Origin: a virus
Direction: 5' to 3' (one strand)
IMG/VR virus record: IMGVR_UViG_3300025120_007633
Coordinates: 1-33,252 of that record
DNA: 33,252 nucleotides
Part shown: positions 325 to 25,590 of the stretch, one piece after another
How the letters are laid out: each line of letters starts with the position of its first letter
Numbering within the stretch: position 1 is the stretch's first letter
The notes under the pieces: model-generated
The model's database searches: none
Told to the model about the DNA's origin: nothing
The model's input: only the letters and a program-made list of their open reading frames with translations
Position numbers and translations under genes: made by a program

Positions 325-1713
325 TTATTCAGCCTTCTTGAGACCAGCCAACATACTCTTAAGTTTACTACTGTCGACTTCTGCTGTAACTTTTGCATCA
401 CTTGTAGGAGTTACTGTACTTCCTTTTTTAATTTGATTCATAATGTCTCCACTACCTACAGATGTGCCTTGGCTATCTTGTCCTTCTTCACCTGGATCAG
501 TAATACGTAGACTATCTAGATCAAATTCTAAATCAACTTTCATACCAACACCACTAGATGATCTTGTTTTCATTAGCTGTAATTGATATCTTCCACGTTC
601 TCGCATTGCACGACTTGTAAATATACCAAACACATTATCAGCAGTATTAATTTTACTCAACCCACCTGCAATATGACTATGATCAAACTCAATTTCTTCT
701 ACTGCCCCTCTGTTCAACTGCGATGCTGTTATCATTAATATGTTCTGCTCACGTGCTAGATTACGTAATTCTTCTGACACATACTTGTCTTTAACAAATA
801 AATCATTTGGGCTAACTTTAGCACTTACTGGCATAACTAAATCTAAATAGTCTACCATAATAAAGTCTATATTCATTCCTGTTTGTACGTGCAGTTCTTT
901 TAAGTAACTTCTAATCTGATTAACATTACTCTGTGCCGACATATACTTAACACGCAATGCTCCGGATTTTTTACCTGCCATTTTAACTTTCATTTCAACT
1001 GTGTCTATATCTTTAAAAACTGCTTTTGTCGAACAGTTAGCTACCATTGAATCCATTCGCATCGAACATAAGCCTTCACTCAATTCTAGTGTTAAGAAAA
1101 CCCCATTAAGTCCTTGGGTTACCCAATTAATAGCTATGTTTTGCATAAACAAACTCTTACCACTACCACTACCACCAGCAAAAATGTTTAGTTCTCCTCT
1201 GTTCATACCACCAAACAATCTTTTGTCTAGTGTAGGCCATCCTGTTGATACTTGTCCATTATTATCTTTAATTGCTAGTAATCTCGACCTAGGATCTTCA
1301 AAGTAATCAGTACCCATATCTTTAGTTAAACTAATCTGTACAGCTTCTTTAATTAATTTTTCTACAGGATCATAATCACCTTTTTCTAATAGGTCTGCAC
1401 TTTTTAAAATTGCACGTTCTAATTCTTGTCTGCGTGTAAATCCCTCAAACTCTTCCATGAACCATGAATAATGATCATCTGTTAGATCTGGTACTGCTTT
1501 AAGATCAATTTTAGTTACTGCTTTTACCTGCTCTGCTGTAGGCATAGCTGTGTGTTCATCTATGTGTGTCTTAATAAACTTGGCCGCTTCTCTTAAGGCA
1601 CGATCAAAGTTTTCTGGATTATAGATATTCTGCACACGCACATAACTTTGTGCGTCTTGGAGCATCATCTCTAGAAATAGCTTTTGTAATTCTGGTGTGT
1701 AGTCTTTTGTCAT
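325..1713 (-). CDS. 41: Replicative DNA helicase, gp41/DnaB family
   Basis: Hexameric 5'-3' helicase that unwinds DNA at the phage fork and activates the primase. At 462 residues it has the usual gp41 size. An N-terminal helical domain (about 1-150) is followed by a RecA-like core. The Walker A motif GGSGSGKS is at 180-187, Walker B IMVDYLD is at 285-291, and the DnaB-type ITASQLNRG segment follows. The C-terminus is acidic and polar. The primase gene lies immediately upstream, as in T4. The gene has its own sigma70-type promoter (1723-1751) inside the end of the primase gene, which would start the mRNA only about 3 nt before the ATG. No Shine-Dalgarno is visible. Confidence 0.95.
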   Translation of the reverse strand: MTKDYTPELQKLFLEMMLQDAQSYVRVQNIYNPENFDRALREAAKFIKTHIDEHTAMPTAEQVKAVTKIDLKAVPDLTDDHYSWFMEEFEGFTRRQELERAILKSADLLEKGDYDPVEKLIKEAVQISLTKDMGTDYFEDPRSRLLAIKDNNGQVSTGWPTLDKRLFGGMNRGELNIFAGGSGSGKSLFMQNIAINWVTQGLNGVFLTLELSEGLCSMRMDSMVANCSTKAVFKDIDTVEMKVKMAGKKSGALRVKYMSAQSNVNQIRSYLKELHVQTGMNIDFIMVDYLDLVMPVSAKVSPNDLFVKDKYVSEELRNLAREQNILMITASQLNRGAVEEIEFDHSHIAGGLSKINTADNVFGIFTSRAMRERGRYQLQLMKTRSSSGVGMKVDLEFDLDSLRITDPGEEGQDSQGTSVGSGDIMNQIKKGSTVTPTSDAKVTAEVDSSKLKSMLAGLKKAE

Positions 1714-1719
1714 ATATAC

Positions 1720-2709
1720 TTAATTATACAGTTTTTTTCTCATAAGTTCAATCTTGAGCTTGCTCGTTTCTTTACCATCTAGGATAGCTTTTAACACAAA
1801 CAACTTGCCATACTTAACAACTGCCTCGTTGATATCTTTGCAGGTCTCTTGCCATACTGGAAAACTTGCTGACCAGCCATACTCCATTGCACTGTTAAGC
1901 ATTTTACTTCCAGCACGATCTCTATCAGCTACTACTATAACTTCTCTACCTAAACTTTCAATTATGTCTGCCTGTGTTTCGTTTACTTCATTGTTTAATA
2001 CTGCAACACCATCGACACTCATAGCGTCAAATGGTCCTTCTGATACTATAACAAACTTCCAATCCTTCTCTTGATTGTTTATGTTAAACACAAAGTTCGG
2101 TTCGTAATGGCTATGGTATTTTGGTTTAACATTATCTTCTATTGCTCTGGCAGTATACCCTATAGTTTTACCTTGCCATATCATAGGAACTATTACTCTT
2201 TTATGTAAATTATATTGTTGCTGTTTGGTTACATAAAATTCATATTTTTCTAAATCAATTTTACGATTATAACAATATTCTAATGCTGGATGTGCATCTT
2301 TAAGATTATTAAAGCTGATTCTATCTTCAGGAAGGTCACGTGATTTAAATTCTATTTTTTCTTCTTGCTCAATTTTTACTTCTTCAGGATTAACTAGTTC
2401 ACGTACTCGTATAGCTTCAATGACTAAACGTTTGATTTCGCTATCATCAACTGATAACCATTTTAAAAACTTACGGAATTTAAATGTTAAGTGTCTGCCT
2501 GGCTGATAACTAGTTTTAAAATTACAATTAAAACAATGATAACTTACTGATCCATCTTGATTAGCTGTAAGTCCACCTCGACCTCTAGTGTCTGGAGTTT
2601 CACCATTATGCACACAACAGACAGCATTAAATGATGTCCACCCGCTAGGAGTAGTTTTCTTCTTAGCCGGTAAATGTTGTTTTACAAAGTCTTGAATGAT
2701 AGTCAGCAT
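1720..2709 (-). CDS. 61: DNA primase, gp61/DnaG type
   Basis: Makes RNA primers for lagging-strand synthesis and works with gp41. A zinc-binding domain is seen at C32-x-H34 with C59-x2-C62. A TOPRIM fold follows, with the catalytic glutamate in VSEGPFDA (E224) and the acidic motif VADRD at 260-264. At 329 residues it fits T4 gp61 (about 340). The helicase gene starts only 6 bp downstream. A sigma70-type promoter at 2717-2745 places the predicted transcription start about 1 nt before the ATG, so the message is probably leaderless. No ribosome binding site is present. Confidence 0.93.
   Translation of the reverse strand: MLTIIQDFVKQHLPAKKKTTPSGWTSFNAVCCVHNGETPDTRGRGGLTANQDGSVSYHCFNCNFKTSYQPGRHLTFKFRKFLKWLSVDDSEIKRLVIEAIRVRELVNPEEVKIEQEEKIEFKSRDLPEDRISFNNLKDAHPALEYCYNRKIDLEKYEFYVTKQQQYNLHKRVIVPMIWQGKTIGYTARAIEDNVKPKYHSHYEPNFVFNINNQEKDWKFVIVSEGPFDAMSVDGVAVLNNEVNETQADIIESLGREVIVVADRDRAGSKMLNSAMEYGWSASFPVWQETCKDINEAVVKYGKLFVLKAILDGKETSKLKIELMRKKLYN
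1723..1751 (-). promoter_or_regulatory. Sigma70-type promoter for gp41
   Basis: Minus strand: TTGAAC, 17-bp spacer, TATAAT. The promoter overlaps the last codons of the primase gene. There are 9 nt between the -10 box and the helicase ATG, so the expected leader is about 3 nt. Confidence 0.7.
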
Positions 2710-2760: not shown

Positions 2761-4719
2761 TTATGGTGACCAGTAAGCTAATTCACCTGTTGTTGGATTG
2801 TAAACAGTATAAAAGAATCCACTTGGCAGTGTACCACCTGATGGTAGTGTACCAGTAGATTTAATTGCAACAGGTTTAATAACTGTAACATTAGCTGAGG
2901 TATTAATTAATTCATTACCAGTTGCATTTATTGTAATACTGTTATTACCTTGATTGTTTAGTCCTGCCTGAGCACCGATTGCTACTGCGGCAAGTCCTTG
3001 ATTTCGGCTACCAGCTTCTCTACCAACTGCTACTGCTTGGGTTGTTTGGGTTAAGTTACCTGCTCGGAAACCAATTGCTACTGTACTAACTCCTTGAGAT
3101 GCTTCACCAGCTTGGAATCCAAGTGCTACTGCTTCTATCCCTTGAGATGTTTCACCAGCATTTGTACCGATATGTACTTCATTACTTTCTACGTAATCAT
3201 CAACATATCCTTTTAGTGCAAGATTTGATCTAGTTATACCAGTTGCTGTTATAGTATTTGCTAGTCCAACAAATCCAATCATTCCAATATTGGCTGTTGT
3301 AACTTTGTTGTCAGTGTAACCTATCTGCCCGATATTAGCCGTTGCAACTTTGTTGTCAGTGTAACCTATCTGTCCAATGTTTGCTGTGTTTACTCTTGAT
3401 GTAATAACGCTATCTTGTACTGTGTTAGCAAAGTCAGTATATCCAATTTGACCAATGTTTGCTGTTGCTACAGCACCACCAACGAATCCAACCATTCCAA
3501 CATTTGCTGTTACTATGCCAATGGATAAGTCAGCAACTTTGTTGTCAACGTAACCTTTTAGTCCAACATTTGCTGTTGTAACTTTGTTAGTAATAACACC
3601 ATCTTGAACAGTATTAGCAAAGTCAGTATAACCTATTTGCCCAATATTTGCTGTTGCTACAGCACCACCAACAAACCCAACCATTCCAATATTTGCTGTT
3701 ACTGTTCCGGCCGCTGTTATGGTATTTGCTAGTCCAACAAATCCAATCATACCAATGTTGGCAGTTAGTACTTTATTATCTGTATAACCTATCTGACCAA
3801 TGTTGGCTGTTGTGGTTGAGTTATCTACATACCCTTTCATTCCAAGGTTTGCTGTAGTAACTTTGTTAGTAATAACACCATCTTGTACTGTGTTAGCGAA
3901 ATCAGTATAACCAATTTGTCCTATATTAGCTGTGTTAACTTTGTTAGTAATAACACCATCTTGTACTGTGTTAGCAAAATCAGTATACCCTTTTAGTCCA
4001 ATGTTTGCTGTTACTATTCCAGCAGTAACAATAGTATTAGCAGTTGTTACAGTTGCTATCGTACCTGCGTAAGTAGGTAAGAACGAAGTTACATTAGCAT
4101 TGCCATAAATTGATGCGTCTTTTTGTTGGTCAACATATCCTCGCATACCGACGTTGGCCGCAATGATTGCCGCTACTTGTATTGTGTTACTTAATGTTGT
4201 AGCAGTATTAACAGCAACAACTTGTCCATCTGTATATGCTTTTTGTATAGTGTTAGCTATTGTAACTTTGCTGTCGGTATATCCTATCTGTCCAATGTTT
4301 GCTGTAGTAACTTTGTTATCTACATACCCTTTCATGGCTAAGTTAGCATTTGTTACCGTTGCTATAGTACCTGTATATGTTGGAAGGAATGAAGTTACGT
4401 TGGCATTACCGTAAATTGATGCGTCTTTTTGTTGATCAACGTATCCTTTCATTATGGTGTTAGCAAAGTCAACATATCCTTTCATACCAATATTGGCTGT
4501 AGTTGTTGAATTATCAACATAACCTTTCATTGCAGTATTAGATTGGGACGATGATCCAACTTCACTATAAACAACATTACCTCCCGGAGTAACACCATCG
4601 TGTACTCGGATGGATCTTAGAGTTGTATCAACAGTAATCTCGCCAGCTGGACCAGTATAGACATTACTTACTGCAAGATTGCCTCTTCTATGTAAAATTA
4701 ATACGTTTGCTACTGTCAT
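2761..4719 (-). CDS. Repetitive fibre-like virion protein
   Basis: A 652-residue protein with three visible parts. Residues 20-50 resemble the short N-terminal module of phage fibre and appendage proteins (YTGPAGEITVDTTLRSIRVH, then DGVTPGG). Residues about 60-510 are a long run of 12-17-residue units such as TANIGQIGYTDNKV and TANIGMIGFVG. The next 80 or so residues carry AVALGFQAGEASQG-type repeats like the head repeats of YadA-type trimeric adhesins. A glycine- and proline-rich tip ends in GELAYWSP. This architecture suggests a trimeric fibre or appendage involved in host contact; the assignment is by pattern only. Its start overlaps the stop of the upstream gene (TAATG), so the two are translationally coupled behind the late promoter at 5251-5258. 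Confidence 0.75.
   Translation of the reverse strand: MTVANVLILHRRGNLAVSNVYTGPAGEITVDTTLRSIRVHDGVTPGGNVVYSEVGSSSQSNTAMKGYVDNSTTTANIGMKGYVDFANTIMKGYVDQQKDASIYGNANVTSFLPTYTGTIATVTNANLAMKGYVDNKVTTANIGQIGYTDSKVTIANTIQKAYTDGQVVAVNTATTLSNTIQVAAIIAANVGMRGYVDQQKDASIYGNANVTSFLPTYAGTIATVTTANTIVTAGIVTANIGLKGYTDFANTVQDGVITNKVNTANIGQIGYTDFANTVQDGVITNKVTTANLGMKGYVDNSTTTANIGQIGYTDNKVLTANIGMIGFVGLANTITAAGTVTANIGMVGFVGGAVATANIGQIGYTDFANTVQDGVITNKVTTANVGLKGYVDNKVADLSIGIVTANVGMVGFVGGAVATANIGQIGYTDFANTVQDSVITSRVNTANIGQIGYTDNKVATANIGQIGYTDNKVTTANIGMIGFVGLANTITATGITRSNLALKGYVDDYVESNEVHIGTNAGETSQGIEAVALGFQAGEASQGVSTVAIGFRAGNLTQTTQAVAVGREAGSRNQGLAAVAIGAQAGLNNQGNNSITINATGNELINTSANVTVIKPVAIKSTGTLPSGGTLPSGFFYTVYNPTTGELAYWSP
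3200..4560 (-). repeat. Coding tandem repeats of the fibre-like gene
   Basis: Degenerate repeats encode GYVD/GYTD/GFVG units separated by TANIG-type linkers. One 24-residue block starting GYVDQQKDASIYGNANVTSF occurs twice (residues 92-115 and 194-217) with identical protein sequence but several synonymous differences in the DNA. Confidence 0.8.
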
Positions 4720-5285: not shown

Positions 5286-5660
5286 ATGGAAGAAGTATAC
5301 AAGAAATTGCTCGACCAGTATCCGTTTATTAGTTATATTACCTATGGAGGGAACGAATACATAGGTATCATTCAAAATTCAGATGAGGTTATTACTACCA
5401 TATATGACTACGCTGTTTTAAAATCTCTAGAAGAAAAAACTCGATTCATGGAATTAGGTGATCAATGGTGGTGGGAATCAAATAGATTAGTTCCAATTAA
5501 TGTATTTTTAAAAGCAGACTGGAACGAATTCCGTCCTTGCTTGAAAACATTTAATTCAAAAGACGTGAATATACAACACGGTCCATACATTAGTCTTAAG
5601 GAAATTGCTCAGAAACGTTCTAAGCGTCGGTCGATAACTCTTGTTCGGAAAGTAAGTTAA
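5286..5660 (+). CDS. Conserved hypothetical phage protein
   Basis: 124 residues, one of only three plus-strand genes. The motif ELGDQWWWESNR in the middle, followed by the basic stretch QKRSKRRS near the C-terminus, looks like a small soluble protein conserved in marine T4-like phages (from memory, not searched). No catalytic signature is visible. The ATG at 5286 is preceded by a weak AGAAAGAA. Its 3' end overlaps the end of the minus-strand gene at 5620 by 41 bp, so the two transcripts converge. Function unknown. Confidence 0.75.
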   Translation: MEEVYKKLLDQYPFISYITYGGNEYIGIIQNSDEVITTIYDYAVLKSLEEKTRFMELGDQWWWESNRLVPINVFLKADWNEFRPCLKTFNSKDVNIQHGPYISLKEIAQKRSKRRSITLVRKVS

Positions 5661-6210
5661 TATTTACTACAACTAGTTGTGCATAACTTACACTGTGACT
5701 CTTCTTAAAATAATAAGTATCATCTTTAGGTTTAACCCAAACTGTTTCAGAAACTTCTTTCCAAGTACGACCTATTAAATGTCTTTTACCCGGACGTATA
5801 ATTGCTAAAAACATAGCCAATCTCGGAATAGTATCTACAGGCTCTGGCATCTGTAATAATAGATCATAATGATTATTAACGTGTATCAATTGCTCACAGA
5901 CTTTAGGATCATATAGTTTAGTCCAATCTGGTTCACGCATAAGTTCAATCAAGTGTTGTTCACTTTTAACCTGTTTATATAAATTAACATTCAACAGATC
6001 AAGTTTCATATATCCTCTATCTTCAGCAACCTTATGATCAAGACTAGCATATCCTGTAAATGGATCTATAGGAACGTCAGTAGCATATACACCTGTGTTA
6101 TGTTTGTTTAGTTGTTGATCACGCAATATACTAGCTGTAGTAACGTCTAGGAGTTCAAGTACTTGATCTCTGTCAGCAAAATCTATATCAATATCTGACT
6201 TAAATTTCAT
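5620..6210 (-). CDS. Miniature DNA polymerase III alpha (DnaE)-like protein
   Basis: 196 residues that line up in order with widely spaced motifs of bacterial DnaE. SDIDIDFADRDQVLEL (5-20) matches the palm motif PDxDxDFxxxxRDQV. HNTGV (37-41) matches the HxGGV segment. GYMKLDLLNVN (66-76) matches the KFDFLGLRT strand that carries the third catalytic aspartate. IIRPGK (137-142) resembles the RPGP segment, and FKKSHSVSYAQ (168-178) matches FNKSHSAAYAL. The PHP, finger and tau-binding regions are absent, and the protein is under a fifth of DnaE length. Acidic residues at all aligned sites are kept. Whether it binds DNA, regulates replication or is catalytic is unknown. It overlaps the upstream gene by 4 nt (ATGA). 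Confidence 0.7.
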   Translation of the reverse strand: MKFKSDIDIDFADRDQVLELLDVTTASILRDQQLNKHNTGVYATDVPIDPFTGYASLDHKVAEDRGYMKLDLLNVNLYKQVKSEQHLIELMREPDWTKLYDPKVCEQLIHVNNHYDLLLQMPEPVDTIPRLAMFLAIIRPGKRHLIGRTWKEVSETVWVKPKDDTYYFKKSHSVSYAQLVVVNINLLSEQELSTDA

Positions 6211-6932
6211 AAGCCTGCATCCTTTAATATCTTTTTAACCCATTCAGTATCTGCTACATAATCTTTAAATTTACGTTGCCAATGATCTGGTTCTATCCAC
6301 GGCATTATAAGTCCAAGCTGATCTTCATTTAGTGTTTCGAGGAATGCAATGCCTGTGTTACAATTAAATACAATCCAAGGACTTACCCTACCGTTGGTAA
6401 TGTGCATACAAACTCTATTTGGACCACCAAATCGGAAATAGTCACTGAATCCATTTTTAAACTCGCCCACTTCATCTGTGTAATCTTGCATTTCTTTTAA
6501 CGCTCTTTCTAGTGCATCACTAACTGATTCTTTACGCATATATTGTTTTAGATATTCTAGATATATCTTTTCCTGACACCAATGGTCAAGTTTCTTATTT
6601 TCTTTAATAACATAATCAATAAATGTTCTAGGATTAACTGCTCGAATACCAACCATATGTCGACCAAACTTAACAAAAGCACGATAATATGGACTAACAA
6701 CAAAGTCAGCATATGTTTTCATCTTAGCACTACCTTGTGTCATTTCATAAAAACGCAAGTAGGCCTGCATACCTAACTGTACTCCTACTTCTTTTTCCTG
6801 TTGCCAACGTCTCTTTGGTTCACATAAATGTACCGCGAGGCTGGACTCTTTGCGAAATTCTTTTCCGCAATATTTACATATGTGCTGTTGGCCCAGTCGC
6901 TTTTCTACCAAATCTTGAGTGTTTTCAATCAT
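6207..6932 (-). CDS. CCHC zinc-finger protein, unknown function
   Basis: 241 residues. The N-terminus holds a single finger, C19-x2-C22-x12-H35-x-C37, in the sequence HICKYCGKEFRKESSLAVHL. The remaining 200 residues are aromatic and charged, with no enzyme motif that I recognise. Zinc-finger proteins of this layout sit near replication and recombination genes in marine T4-like phages, so a nucleic-acid-binding role is plausible but inferred. The start overlaps the upstream stop by 4 nt and the stop overlaps the DnaE-like gene by 4 nt, so the four-gene operon 7968-5620 is translationally coupled. Confidence 0.75.
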   Translation of the reverse strand: MIENTQDLVEKRLGQQHICKYCGKEFRKESSLAVHLCEPKRRWQQEKEVGVQLGMQAYLRFYEMTQGSAKMKTYADFVVSPYYRAFVKFGRHMVGIRAVNPRTFIDYVIKENKKLDHWCQEKIYLEYLKQYMRKESVSDALERALKEMQDYTDEVGEFKNGFSDYFRFGGPNRVCMHITNGRVSPWIVFNCNTGIAFLETLNEDQLGLIMPWIEPDHWQRKFKDYVADTEWVKKILKDAGL

Positions 6933-7393
6933 CCTAATTCTTTTTTGATTTCCTTATCCTCTATACCTAATGTTTGTGCCAGCTTCTTGATGTCTTTCTT
7001 GTCATTGAGTTTTGCTAATAGATCTATTTCATCAGCTTTCATATTAGGATACAACTTAGCTAAAAACTTTTGACTTTTATTGTTTCCTTCTTTTTTCTTT
7101 GCCTTAAGCCAATAGTGATACTGTCCGCCCATACCTGGACTAACTGTAGTACATACTAACCATTGTAATTTTTTGTGTTTGTTTATTTCAAAGAAATGTT
7201 TGTTTACTCGCTCATTGGTAGCTAAGAGATAGTATGACTGTATGTCTAGATTACCACCTACATTTGATCCCCATTTCAACATTAGATATGTTGAGAATTT
7301 CTTTAAGTCTTCATCAGTGAAGTTATCATGGTAGTCACGATCTTTGCGATCCATTGCCGCCATTTCATCTTTTATGTATAAGCTACTACTCAT
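6929..7393 (-). CDS. Conserved phage protein, possibly clamp-loader small subunit (gp62-like)
   Basis: 154 residues, lysine-rich at the C-terminus. The layout is a central hydrophobic segment YLMLKWGS, then YYLLATNERVNKHFFEINKH, a small turn VSPGMGGQYHYWLKAKKK, and a helical tail with NDKKDIKKLAQTLG. The order of segments resembles T4 gp62, which with gp44 loads the sliding clamp. The similarity is judged by eye and is weak, and no gp44 lies in the window, so this stays a suggestion. It overlaps both neighbours by 4 nt in an operon with a DnaE-like protein, which fits a replication role. Confidence 0.5.
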   Translation of the reverse strand: MSSSLYIKDEMAAMDRKDRDYHDNFTDEDLKKFSTYLMLKWGSNVGGNLDIQSYYLLATNERVNKHFFEINKHKKLQWLVCTTVSPGMGGQYHYWLKAKKKEGNNKSQKFLAKLYPNMKADEIDLLAKLNDKKDIKKLAQTLGIEDKEIKKELG

Positions 7394-7968
7394 ACCGTTC
7401 TCCCTACCAATACAATTTTACAAATATGTTCAAGACGTTCTGTGTGTTCATAAGCGTCATACAATGTAGACCCTCTGCTGACAGCACCGTGTGCTTTGAT
7501 ACCAACTATGTCTTTATCTTCGCCTAGTTTCAGTATACATTGTTCTGCTAGTTCTTCGCTGATAGGTGGTACCATTCCTACATTGTCAGCAACACGAGTA
7601 TATCTGCTAATTTCAGGATAGTCCGTTACTAAGGTTGATAACTCTAGTGTCTGCATTGCCGCAACAATGTAAGTAGGGTGTAAATGAACTACGCATTGTT
7701 CTTGTTGTGTTTGTTTTATTAATCTGTGATGTAGATGTATTTCTCCGCTTGCTCGAAGATCTAGATTATCATCTAACTCTGCTAGTGTAGTAATGTCAAT
7801 CTTTTTAAATAGCTCAGGAGTCATATCCTGTTTACGAACACCACTTGGTGTAATATAAAAATAACTAGCACCTTCTGGATGCCAACTAATATTACCATCA
7901 CGGCTGGTTATCCAGTTACGACTGTAAGCGTCTTTAAGCAATTCACAAATGTTAGTTAGTGTATTCAT
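7390..7968 (-). CDS. Class II aldolase/adducin family protein
   Basis: 192-residue zinc-dependent aldolase or dehydratase of the L-fuculose-phosphate aldolase fold, of normal family length. Seen: the phosphate-site segment TSRDGNIS (21-28), catalytic-type glutamate in SGE (E76), zinc ligands in VVHLHP (H95, H97) and a third histidine in YEHTERLEH (probably H175). The substrate cannot be told: sugar phosphates such as fuculose- or ribulose-phosphates are family options. All key residues are present, so it is probably active. It heads an operon whose later genes look replicative, and has a strong sigma70-type promoter placing the start site 1 nt before the ATG. Confidence 0.88.
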   Translation of the reverse strand: MNTLTNICELLKDAYSRNWITSRDGNISWHPEGASYFYITPSGVRKQDMTPELFKKIDITTLAELDDNLDLRASGEIHLHHRLIKQTQQEQCVVHLHPTYIVAAMQTLELSTLVTDYPEISRYTRVADNVGMVPPISEELAEQCILKLGEDKDIVGIKAHGAVSRGSTLYDAYEHTERLEHICKIVLVGRTV

Positions 7969-9024: not shown

Positions 9025-10485
9025 CTATTTTTGCCATTGTATCTTCTGTACTTCAAATGGATAATTTGCATCCTTATAAAATGCCTTACGTTTTGTTAAA
9101 TGACGTTTTGCAAATTTACAGGTTGATGTTATATCCCATATCTGTACAAAGTCTTTATCTTCTGCTTTTCTAATTCCACGACCTATACTTTGTATGACTC
9201 TAACAAAGCTCTTACCAGGTTCAACAAGAACAAGATTGAAAATACGAGGGATATTAATACCCACAGCGGCAACACCATAAGTGGCAATAATAACTTTACC
9301 GTCCATTGTTGCAATTTCGTCATATTCATCTTTCCTATCATCAGCTTTAGTTCCTCCTGAAACAAATACTGCATCTTTAACTTTCTCTGCTAGATATTTA
9401 CCAGGTACTATTCTATCTACTAGCACTAACGTATTTCCTGCTTCACGTATCGATTCAATTAGCTCTGCCATATAATCTAAACGAGATTCAGTTGATAATA
9501 GATATTTTAGTTCACTCTGATAATCTTTGTATTCTACACTATCTTGTAATTGTAACACATTCACGTGGCAGTTTGCAAGAACTCCTTGATCTTGTAATTC
9601 CTTTGCACTTAGTCTGCCTATTACATTTCCAATACTGCATTTTAAACTCATAAATTCAAAGTCTTCTTTAGGTATTGTTCCTGTTAGTCCCCAACGGATA
9701 GGTATATGTGCCATTACTCCTGTTAGCAGAGTTTTAAGTGCATCAGCTTTTGCCATATGTACTTCGTCTACCATAACACAAACAACGTCTTCTAGGAATT
9801 CACTAATTGTAACATCTACTTCATAGTTGCGTGATCCTTTAAGCAAGATGTTTAGACTTTGCCAAGTACAAATTGTATGTGTCTTACCAAACTCCTTACG
9901 ATCACCAAAGTAAACTCCTACATCTAATCCCATATTAATGTAGTCTGCTTCGGTCTGTGTTACAAGTGATTTGTTAGGTACTATGACTATCGTACGACCG
10001 TGCGGCTCGCAACAGTGACTTAATACAGCAGTTATAAGTGTCTTTCCTGCACCAGTTGCTACTTCTTGTAAGCATTGTGGATTCTCAAGAAACTTGTTTA
10101 TAATATCAACTTGATAGTCACGCAACATAATTGGTTCACCTGCTATTGGATGTGTTTCTGGCCAATTAATTGTTGCAAAGCTGTCTTGAGTTACTTGGGT
10201 AAACTCAAAGTTAGTTTGATACTCCCTAAAGTCTTCGAGCTCAACGTGATATCCTTGTTTATCTAAGTAGGGTAATATTTCAGGCAATAAATTAGTAAAG
10301 GTACTTCCGCCCATTTGAAAGAATCCTACTTTACCATCCCATCGACCTAGTCTAACTGCTGGAAGATATCTTGCACCTGGTATCTCGAACTTGAACATAT
10401 TAGTTAGTTCTTTACGTTCTAGAATGTCAAGTCCTTCTATTTTTACATTGACTTCATCTTTAATTAATAATCTAGCTGTTGCCAT
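9025..10485 (-). CDS. uvsW: UvsW-type DNA/RNA helicase (SF2)
   Basis: ATP-dependent helicase and branch-migration enzyme that in T4 resolves R-loops and stalled forks and drives the switch to recombination-dependent replication. 486 residues, near the T4 length of about 500. An N-terminal DNA-binding-like region (1-95) is followed by motif Ia/I EVATGAGKT (141-149), DEVH box (240-243), motif III GLTGT (266-270) and motif VI IQSIGRGIRK near 440. The ATG lies 14 nt inside the end of the upstream gene, so the two are coupled. All core residues are present. Confidence 0.95.
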   Translation of the reverse strand: MATARLLIKDEVNVKIEGLDILERKELTNMFKFEIPGARYLPAVRLGRWDGKVGFFQMGGSTFTNLLPEILPYLDKQGYHVELEDFREYQTNFEFTQVTQDSFATINWPETHPIAGEPIMLRDYQVDIINKFLENPQCLQEVATGAGKTLITAVLSHCCEPHGRTIVIVPNKSLVTQTEADYINMGLDVGVYFGDRKEFGKTHTICTWQSLNILLKGSRNYEVDVTISEFLEDVVCVMVDEVHMAKADALKTLLTGVMAHIPIRWGLTGTIPKEDFEFMSLKCSIGNVIGRLSAKELQDQGVLANCHVNVLQLQDSVEYKDYQSELKYLLSTESRLDYMAELIESIREAGNTLVLVDRIVPGKYLAEKVKDAVFVSGGTKADDRKDEYDEIATMDGKVIIATYGVAAVGINIPRIFNLVLVEPGKSFVRVIQSIGRGIRKAEDKDFVQIWDITSTCKFAKRHLTKRKAFYKDANYPFEVQKIQWQK

Positions 10486-20495: not shown

Positions 20496-21503
20496 TTAAA
20501 AATCGCTTGAAATAGCTGACCCTTTGTTTGGATCACTAAATCCAGATTCAGTAGGTGCTTGTCCTTGAGCAATTTGTTCGTTACTTAAATTATATGGATT
20601 TTGATTAGTACCATCAGCACCAGGTACGTTTAGATCTTGTTGTTGCTGAGGAGGTGGTGTAGCACCAAATCTATGTTTAGCTAGTTCTGGATCAATTTCT
20701 TTTACCTTAGTCCAATATTTTGAACTTTCATCGATATCTACTAATTCTTCGTCTAGACCATGGAACTCTCTATAGTCGTCAATTGCTTTAACACAGTTAG
20801 GTAAGCCGTAGTCATCAATAATTAAATGTCCACCTACACTTAGTAGAGGATATAAATTTTCTAATGCTTGGATAGTTGATTCATACATATCACCATCTAA
20901 TCTAATAACAGAGAACTGTTTAACTTCTAGTGGCCACTCATCTTGATTGAAGCCACCTTCAACTAACTTTGGTAGCGTGTCACCAAACAATCCCATAATA
21001 AATCTTATTCTATCTGGATTAAGTAGACCATATCCTTTAAAGTTTTCAATAACCTCGTGTATACTAACCTTTAAGAACAGTGCTTCGAAGTGTTTGTCTC
21101 CTTCGTCAGTAGGATATTTACCAGTGTTTGGTGGTGGAAGACCGTCAAAGCTATCACATACTATTACCTTACGGTCTTTTATATCGTATGCCTGCATAAC
21201 AGCGGCCGCCATTAACGAACATCCACCTCGCCATACTCCAGTTTCAATAAAGTCCCCTGGTATACCTTTAGTTTCTACATCTTCAACTAGAGCTCGAACA
21301 TTATCCATTCTATGTTCACCAGCCATTGTTTGTGCTAGGAATGGCCACGTTTGTCCTTTTGATCTAGCTTCGCGATTGAAAGGTAACTGTGTTGCATCAG
21401 CTGGTTGGAATTCTGGATCTCTATATGTATATCCCAATATATTATCTCTAATTGCAGTTAGATATAAATTAATTAACCGTTGTTCTTGTTCTGTTGTTTT
21501 CAT
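20496..21503 (-). CDS. TylF/MycF-type sugar O-methyltransferase with disordered tail
   Basis: SAM- and metal-dependent methyltransferase of the macrocin O-methyltransferase family. Seen: the SAM site DFIETGVWRGGCS (about 80-92), CDSFDGLPPP (130s) and RLDGDMYESTIQALENLYPL with IIDDYG, which carry the acidic metal ligands. The first 265 or so residues are a normal TylF domain. The last 65 (RFGATPPPQQQQ onwards) are low-complexity Q/N/P/G/S, unusual for the family. It overlaps the upstream gene by 1 nt. It probably methylates a hydroxyl of the deoxysugar made by this operon. Confidence 0.88.
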   Translation of the reverse strand: MKTTEQEQRLINLYLTAIRDNILGYTYRDPEFQPADATQLPFNREARSKGQTWPFLAQTMAGEHRMDNVRALVEDVETKGIPGDFIETGVWRGGCSLMAAAVMQAYDIKDRKVIVCDSFDGLPPPNTGKYPTDEGDKHFEALFLKVSIHEVIENFKGYGLLNPDRIRFIMGLFGDTLPKLVEGGFNQDEWPLEVKQFSVIRLDGDMYESTIQALENLYPLLSVGGHLIIDDYGLPNCVKAIDDYREFHGLDEELVDIDESSKYWTKVKEIDPELAKHRFGATPPPQQQQDLNVPGADGTNQNPYNLSNEQIAQGQAPTESGFSDPNKGSAISSDF

Positions 21504-23777: not shown

Positions 23778-24514
23778 TAATCAATAACCATCATTCCGTT
23801 TGGTGCAATATTTCCTTCTAGACCTACAGTTTCTACTTCAACCAATTTGTCTCGTGGAAGAAACTTACTCATTGAATGTTCATTATCAATATAGTTGCCA
23901 GCGTTGAATAACTCCATCATATTACCAATAATCTTTTGATACATATCTATAGTTGGTATTAGTAGTGCTGGAGTAAATGACCACAGACGTGTTTGATATT
24001 GTGTAGTTACTCCAGTTATACTTGGGTTACACCAACCTGGTTGTGCTGTTTTAAACACATACTTGTCTTTTGTTGTTGAGTTGTCAAATGCATCAAGATT
24101 AAATTTTTCAGTAAGTTTATATCTACCACTAAGTTTAAATATCCTGTTAGCACCTTTAATTTCTGCAGTTAGTTCTGGATCTTGATCAATATAAATTAGA
24201 CTTTTTAAAATACCTAGTGCCTCCATTGCATTTTTTCCAATGTCGTAATTTTGTACATTTTCGTGGAAGTATCGTATGTCGGCATCTTCACTATTATCAA
24301 TATAGTAGTCCACTGTATCTATTAGTTCATTGAATACATCACTATCGTCATTAGCAACATCTACTTTACTGTTGTCGATTAATACTACAACTGCACCTGG
24401 GATAAATTTCTTGGCACTTTGAGCAGTTTCTAGAGTTTGTTGTATTCTATCAGCTGGTTTGTATATTCCGTAGTTGGTATACAGAGCTGATGTTAGGAGT
24501 ACTATATTTTTCAT
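23777..24514 (-). CDS. Glycan-operon protein, possibly glycosyltransferase-like
   Basis: 245 residues. The N-terminus reads KNIVLLTSALYTNYGIYKPA, then VVVLIDNSKVD, like a GT-A nucleotide-binding beta-alpha-beta, but no DxD is clear. ANRIFKLSGRYKL in the middle is another segment I have seen in uncharacterised proteins of surface-glycan clusters. Its start overlaps the 4,6-dehydratase stop by 1 nt. A role in sugar transfer or modification is inferred from context only. Confidence 0.68.
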   Translation of the reverse strand: MKNIVLLTSALYTNYGIYKPADRIQQTLETAQSAKKFIPGAVVVLIDNSKVDVANDDSDVFNELIDTVDYYIDNSEDADIRYFHENVQNYDIGKNAMEALGILKSLIYIDQDPELTAEIKGANRIFKLSGRYKLTEKFNLDAFDNSTTKDKYVFKTAQPGWCNPSITGVTTQYQTRLWSFTPALLIPTIDMYQKIIGNMMELFNAGNYIDNEHSMSKFLPRDKLVEVETVGLEGNIAPNGMMVID

Positions 24515-25551
24515 TATTCGTCCTCACAACGTAACCAACGATCGTTTTGTAGTGTCCAATCAACTACTTCACCGATACGTTCTGTTAATTCTACTTTAGG
24601 CTCCCACCCTAGTTTTCTCATATAGTCACCATCTAACGCATACCTTAGATCGTGTCCAGGGCGTGCTGAATGGAAATCCATCATTTCGTATTTTAGTTCT
24701 TTACCTTGTGCATCAGCAATGATCTGTGCTAATTGTAAATTATTAATTTCTTGTTTTCCTACTAGATTAAACTTAGGACATTTAGCATCACCATAATCTG
24801 CTTCTAGTTTAGAGTCATCTAATTCTAACAAGAACTGCATAGCATCTGCTACATCGGCGGCGTGTATATAAAATCTACTGCCTGGAATTGTACGTGTGCT
24901 GTCTGAATGGATAGTAATAGGATCGCCATCGTTCACTTTACGGATACACATTGGAATAAACTTTTCTGGATGCTGTCGTTGTCCAAACACATTCATGGTA
25001 TGTGTAATGTATATTGGCATCTTGTAAGTATTTTCAAACGCTACTGCTAATTCTTCGCCACCAGCTTTAGTTGCTGAATAAGGATTACTTGAATTATATC
25101 TATCACGTTCTTTATAATTTACACCTTGTGGTGCTGGCCCAAATACTTCATCTGTTGAAAAGTACACAAAGCGTTCTAGATTTGGTAGTTTACGGGCAAA
25201 CTCTAAACAATGACCTGTTCCTACTACATTGTCCATAACAAATTCCATTGGATATTCTATCGAACGATCAACGTGACTACCTGCGGCCAAGTGTAATACA
25301 AATTCGACATCACCAATATCTCTAGCTACCATTGGATTGATTTCTGCTCTCAAATCGTGGAATACTACCCTTACACGTTTTCTAGTTTCTGCGTCGAATT
25401 CATCCATCATATCGTGAAGACGATTCAGGTTACCTGAGAAGTCTAACCTATCTAGGCTGACCACATTCCAGTCGGTATTTCTTAATATATTTTCAATAAC
25501 GTGGTGTGCAATAAAACCCGCACCACCAGTCACTAAGACGGTTTTTGACAT
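24514..25551 (-). CDS. NDP-glucose 4,6-dehydratase (RmlB family)
   Basis: First enzyme of 6-deoxysugar synthesis: converts an NDP-hexose to its 4-keto-6-deoxy form. From MSKTVLVTGG the visible motifs are GGAGFIA (9-15), the catalytic triad region FSTDEVFG (T133, D134, E135) and Y158-x3-K162 (YSATK). The Rossmann G is replaced by A at the last position of GxxGxxA, which is tolerated in SDRs. At 345 residues it is of normal length. I chose ATG 25549-25551 because GGAGAG sits 4 nt upstream; an ATG at 25563 would place that site inside the gene. It leads an eight-gene overlapping operon behind a late-type promoter. Confidence 0.9.
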   Translation of the reverse strand: MSKTVLVTGGAGFIAHHVIENILRNTDWNVVSLDRLDFSGNLNRLHDMMDEFDAETRKRVRVVFHDLRAEINPMVARDIGDVEFVLHLAAGSHVDRSIEYPMEFVMDNVVGTGHCLEFARKLPNLERFVYFSTDEVFGPAPQGVNYKERDRYNSSNPYSATKAGGEELAVAFENTYKMPIYITHTMNVFGQRQHPEKFIPMCIRKVNDGDPITIHSDSTRTIPGSRFYIHAADVADAMQFLLELDDSKLEADYGDAKCPKFNLVGKQEINNLQLAQIIADAQGKELKYEMMDFHSARPGHDLRYALDGDYMRKLGWEPKVELTERIGEVVDWTLQNDRWLRCEDE

Positions 25552-25590
25552 AAATCTCTCCATTTTTCATTGAATTTACTACTATAAATG

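Follow-up and report, generated by a model that had tools for sequence, protein, structure and literature searches.

A metagenomic phage protein predicted to be the C-terminal half of a minimal, split DNA polymerase III alpha

Jumbo phages of group 2.2, which possess a family B DNA polymerase, have been reported to encode additionally a minimal, split alpha subunit of DNA polymerase III (Pol III alpha), comprising an N-terminal nucleoside triphosphate (NTP)-binding protein and a C-terminal metal- and template-binding protein, the genes of which are far apart (Iyer et al., 2021, section 3.4.1; PMC7824862). Assembly of the two units into an active enzyme was put forward in that report as a proposal. 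Truncated Pol III alpha proteins had been noted earlier in such phages, namely CBB_328 (PMC5259590) and Atu_ph07 gp316 (PMC6102473); the size and genome position of CBB_328 suggest that it is the N-terminal half (N-half), and the C-terminal half (C-half) of CBB is gp287, for which similarity to a "putative membrane protein" was recorded. Here, a further member of this system is described from a metagenomic phage, IMG/VR record IMGVR_UViG_3300025120_007633, of which the whole stretch of 33,252 nucleotides (the window) was analyzed. The gene at 5620–6210 on the minus strand encodes a 196-residue protein of PHROG 11778, predicted to be the C-half of such a split Pol III alpha. The split minimal enzyme is already published, and the 196-residue protein is neither a new kind of protein nor a lone miniature. 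Atu_ph07, a named member of group 2.2, encodes a protein 51% identical to the window C-half, and the window gene differs from PHROG 11778 and its partner family PHROG 11127 by sequence divergence only (32–51% identity to the isolates). The C-terminal unit of the published system is equated here with PHROG 11778 from its description, because the text of the paper does not give its accession.

The open reading frame (ORF) begins with ATG, and its product matches PHROG 11778 ("DNA polymerase") with an E-value of 1e-63 over 192 of 196 residues. The motifs SDIDIDF..RDQV, KHNTGV, KLDLL, IRPGK, and FKKSHSVSYA follow one another along the protein; a preliminary description of the sequence had listed five DnaE motifs in this order, which is borne out, although their spelling requires correction, the first having no proline and the second reading KHNTGV rather than HxGGV. 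Used as a single query, the 196-residue protein had no meaningful match in Pfam, NCBIfam, or PDB, and a 17-sequence HMMER profile of the C-half found no chain in PDB. The lack of a Pfam hit is misleading for the C-half, because only profile–profile and fold comparisons worked. In hhalign, a 64-member family alignment matched ten DnaE and DnaE-like proteins with a probability of 95% (P 3.8e-8), and the motifs HxxGV, KxDxL, RPG, and KSHSxxYA align collinearly. A 17-phage C-half profile reached 92%, its alignment now extending to the DxDxD strand, and a 63-member IMG/VR profile reached 74%, whereas the negative controls (reversed DnaE and ten column shuffles) stayed at or below 0.4%. Furthermore, PF17657, the Pol III finger domain, weakly matches 11 of 17 isolate homologues (best E-value 3e-5). 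The AlphaFold2 model of the C-half has a mean predicted local distance difference test (pLDDT) score of 94.1 and a predicted template modeling score of 0.83. Compared with PDB by Foldseek, it retrieves only Pol III alpha or PolC chains among its top 12 matches. Although these have modest E-values (0.005 to 0.6), they attain probabilities of up to 0.99, as against 0.09 or less for the unrelated chains ranked below them. By VIA-align, 192 of the 196 residues superpose on residues 459–841 of Taq alpha (Z 9.5, root-mean-square deviation 3.7) and 186 residues on 397–784 of E. coli alpha (Z 8.0), whereas the best unrelated chain attains only Z 3.6. Profile and fold searches had both been named beforehand as checks, and both return DnaE or PolC. 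The ORF is real and homologous to DnaE, and, as judged from sequence and predicted structure, its product is the metal- and template-binding part of Pol III alpha, beginning at the DxD strand.

The residues retained in the C-half can be placed on E. coli alpha: D6, D8, and D10 of the window protein correspond to D401, D403, and D405, H37 and G40 to H511 and G514, K69 and D71 to K553 and D555, R139-P140 to R639-P640, and H172 and Y176 to H760 and Y764. Conservation was computed over 138 distinct C-half sequences, and each of these equivalents is invariant in 138/138, including the three catalytic aspartates (D401, D403, and D555; D6, D8, and D71 in the window protein); the DnaE-type palm with three acidic residues postulated earlier is upheld. 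The palm fold, D401/D403/D555, K553, H511, RPG, KSHSxxYA, and their order are shared with bacterial DnaE (alpha of E. coli, Taq, and M. tuberculosis). By contrast with bacterial DnaE, the phage enzyme is split at 393/397, and its halves are without PHP, thumb, the LRRxMGKK finger segment, and the beta-binding, OB, and tau-binding parts; the 196-residue protein itself holds no PHP, thumb, full finger, beta-binding, or OB domain. The earlier account of what has been dropped requires correction: the fingers, counted there as lost, are partly kept (RPxK and KSHSxxYA are invariant or nearly so), and the segment missing between DxDxD and HxxG is the thumb. Approximately 85 finger residues have been lost, the LRRxMGKK segment among them, with a spacing from R639 to K758 of 29–39 residues versus 119.

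The N-half is a second small gene, belonging to PHROG 11127 (a match shown for the N-half of a relative), and PF07733 detects it in 14/14 isolate genomes carrying the C-half. It is matched to DnaE by hhalign at 97%, and its structure model (pLDDT 92) aligns to residues 278–393 of E. coli alpha with Z 11.3. The two halves, at 278–393 and 397–784, thus map to the same E. coli alpha chain without overlap and with three residues between them. In nearly all of 75 distinct sequences the N-half ORF ends at, or a few residues from, an EFLK stretch (ERFLN in E. coli), and the C-half begins five residues ahead of the first aspartate; therefore, the chain is cut at one fixed place. The GS nucleotide-binding motif, absent from the 196-residue protein, is found instead in the N-half as an invariant G-x-G-R-G-S-S. 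The stand-alone mini-polymerase of the preliminary description is better described as the C-terminal part of an enzyme that is split, with the N-half gene located elsewhere in related genomes. Both halves are also found in four large relatives (G001, G009, G020, and G021), the last three being relatives of the window phage. Among 12 IMG/VR contigs of more than 300 kb picked for one half, the other half is present in 11, although these contigs are not independent because several are near-copies of isolates. The N-half and C-half are gp373 and gp411 in RaK2 and Paride_0087 and Paride_0017 in Paride. The distance between the halves is approximately 33 kb in RaK2 and 43 kb in Paride, where the N-half lies four and three genes upstream of gp44, respectively, and replication neighborhoods surround both halves. 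The window phage probably carries the N-half as well. A family B polymerase (PF00136, DNA_pol_B) occurs in all 14 isolates and in G009, G020, and G021, in agreement with the T4-like lineage proposed at the outset. A second, weak N-half-like match lies at G023:C1:54886-55167, on the contig of locus L274, within a 570-residue open frame, which may encode a further protein of the Pol III alpha type in that phage.

These observations are best accounted for, with a probability of roughly 0.68, if the product of the gene is the C-terminal subunit of a minimal, split family C (DnaE-type) polymerase that is auxiliary to the family B replicase of the phage. The C-half would contribute the metal-binding palm strand (DIDID), the strand of the third aspartate (KLDLL), and shortened fingers (RPxK and KSHSxxYA), whereas the N-half, the gene of which lies at a distance of tens to hundreds of kb (in RaK2 and Paride, close to that of the gp44 clamp loader), would contribute the start of the palm and the GRGSS (GS) motif. 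Together, the halves may form a single active site resembling that of Pol III alpha, and the pair could then add nucleotides as an auxiliary enzyme, on one strand or in gap filling or repair. Binding of the duplex would probably require another protein, because there is no thumb. Several findings weigh against this reading. The loss of the thumb is evident from the spacing between DxD and HxxG (D405 to H511), which is 24–36 residues across the C-halves versus 106 in E. coli; in the window protein, 27 residues separate DxDxD from HxxG. Two arginines that are invariant in 10/10 DnaE-type sequences are also gone: R709 disappeared from the C-half with the LRRxMGKK deletion, and the position of R390 is occupied by Glu in the N-half. 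In structures of Pol III, arginines of this kind are in contact with the incoming triphosphate. Because R390, R709, and the thumb are lost, the binding of deoxynucleoside triphosphate and primer must differ from that in DnaE, and mainly for these losses and that of finger segments the polymerase activity of the pair is not to be assumed. In addition, a PF07733 search found no N-half within the 33-kb window, one 348-kb contig has an N-half with the C-half undetected, and no biochemistry of the split pair was found in the searched literature.

Retention of the metal ligands and the GS motif alongside loss of the thumb and of R390/R709 would also suit a metal-dependent nucleotidyltransferase other than a template-directed DNA polymerase, serving for example in end-tailing, primer modification, or production of a nucleotide signal. 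The preservation of the finger elements RPxK and KSHSxxYA and the presence of primase, helicase, and clamp loader genes as neighbors make this doubtful. It is likewise only a tentative suggestion that a thumbless split family C enzyme with a rebuilt nucleotide site performs nucleotidyl transfer other than ordinary replication; an invariant lysine after RPx has been gained in the C-half, and the products of the conserved zinc-finger and convergent genes beside the C-half gene are perhaps further subunits of such an enzyme. That neighborhood suggests a multi-protein assembly and, together with the small size of the protein, would fit a non-catalytic structural relic that serves the phage replisome in assembly or DNA binding; an invariant metal triad and invariant equivalents of K553 and H511 are, however, unexpected in a relic, and this explanation appears improbable. 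The preliminary description had also offered a decoy or regulator of host Pol III, to which the resemblance to host alpha and the possession of a replicase by these phages would lend some appeal. Such a role is very unlikely, because the catalytic residues are strictly conserved, with the equivalents of K553, H511, and H760 among the invariant positions, and a matched N-half with a conserved GS motif is present in every isolate; moreover, the phages have a wide range of hosts, and the protein lacks the parts of alpha that bind other subunits of the host replisome (beta, tau, and epsilon).

With respect to the searched literature, the new elements are the split point at residue level, the structure models of the two halves, the statistics on conservation, and the finding that R390, R709, and the thumb have been lost. 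To our knowledge, the window gene belongs to an enzyme that is one of the smallest catalytic cores of the DnaE type. A core cut at one fixed point has been kept in hundreds of jumbo-phage sequences, the isolates among which already own a full replicase. If the pair is active, it would reveal which portions of Pol III alpha catalysis truly requires and would inform the question of whether cores of this kind are remnants or reductions. MIJ3 has a split family B polymerase (PMC6892783), which was considered and set aside, as its split is different and associated with an intein that contains a homing endonuclease.

A tblastn search retrieved C-half homologues at 32–51% identity from 63 phage records, almost all of jumbo phages; they include RaK2, CBB, GAP32, 121Q, Munch, PA5oct/Paride, Atu_ph07, Phosso (in which the gene is annotated "DnaE-like DNA polymerase III alpha"), SCTP-2, and XacN1. 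Two IMG/VR scans for relatives of the C-half yielded overlapping sets of 471 and at least 599, and the SCTP-2 protein used as a query found no relatives among viral_contigs. Eleven contigs assigned to bacteria or archaea (L311–L321), including ones of 335 kb and 284 kb, carry the C-half gene. Cellular homologues in GTDB were rejected, since all matches lie in metagenome-derived assemblies and are probably misbinned phage contigs. A stand-alone DnaQ exonuclease (PF00929) occurs in 12/14 isolates, and a DnaQ/epsilon-type exonuclease gene lies close to the C-half gene in RaK2, XacN1, and CBB (loci L004, L089, and L090); DnaQ was nevertheless rejected as an obligate partner, as searches of Phosso, SCTP-2, and the large relatives G020 and G021 revealed none.

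Directly upstream of the C-half gene is a zinc-finger gene (6207–6932, minus strand, PHROG 11058). The 4-base ATGA overlap at 6207–6210 couples it translationally to the C-half gene, as had been stated earlier, and it occupies this upstream position in 182 of 188 homologous loci. Its product has a C2H2/C2HC-type finger at residues 17–37 (zf-C2H2 E-value 7e-4, below the Pfam cut-off), in which C19, C22, H35, and C37 are invariant. The product is a candidate DNA-binding partner and, because of its constant position only, a candidate helper in duplex binding. The zinc-finger gene is preceded by a gene of PHROG 11758 (6929–7393, minus strand), present in 145 of 175 loci. Its earlier identification as gp62-like is unsupported: hhalign against a single T4 gp62 sequence gave 2%, no clamp loader was matched among PDB profiles, and PHROG 11758 carries no functional annotation. 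On the opposite strand, a convergent small gene of PHROG 11637 (5286–5660, plus strand) shares 41 bp with the C-half gene at the 3′ end of the latter; it is the antisense neighbor of the C-half in 170 of the 172 loci with enough flank, at a median spacing of about 0, and a PDB profile search with its product returned no match.

The replication cluster of the window matches that of RaK2 and comprises, besides the C-half, a DnaB-like replicative helicase resembling T4 gp41 (325–1713, minus strand; phrog_19, E-value 3e-72), a T4 gp61-like DNA primase (1720–2709, minus strand; phrog_47, 1e-43), and a UvsW-like DNA helicase (9025–10485, minus strand; phrog_16, DNA helicase, 5e-76). The order of primase and C-half genes is common to RaK2, CBB, Paride, and Phosso, and that of the UvsW-like and C-half genes is as in RaK2 (uvsW, L004:1572-3107) and CBB. 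Inserted in the cluster at 7390–7968 (minus strand) is a gene for a class II aldolase/adducin-type protein (Pfam E-value 2e-29); it is probably recent cargo, because none of the 166 homologous loci with sufficient flanking sequence contains it. The stretch at 2761–4719 (minus strand), which lies between the genes for primase and C-half, encodes a 652-residue protein of degenerate repeats (TANIGMKGYVDxxx) that has no PHROG match. Farther along the window, a nucleotide-sugar epimerase (PHROG 540; 24514–25563) and a methyltransferase-like protein (20496–21503), both on the minus strand and amid many unmatched ORFs, may mark a sugar-modification island.
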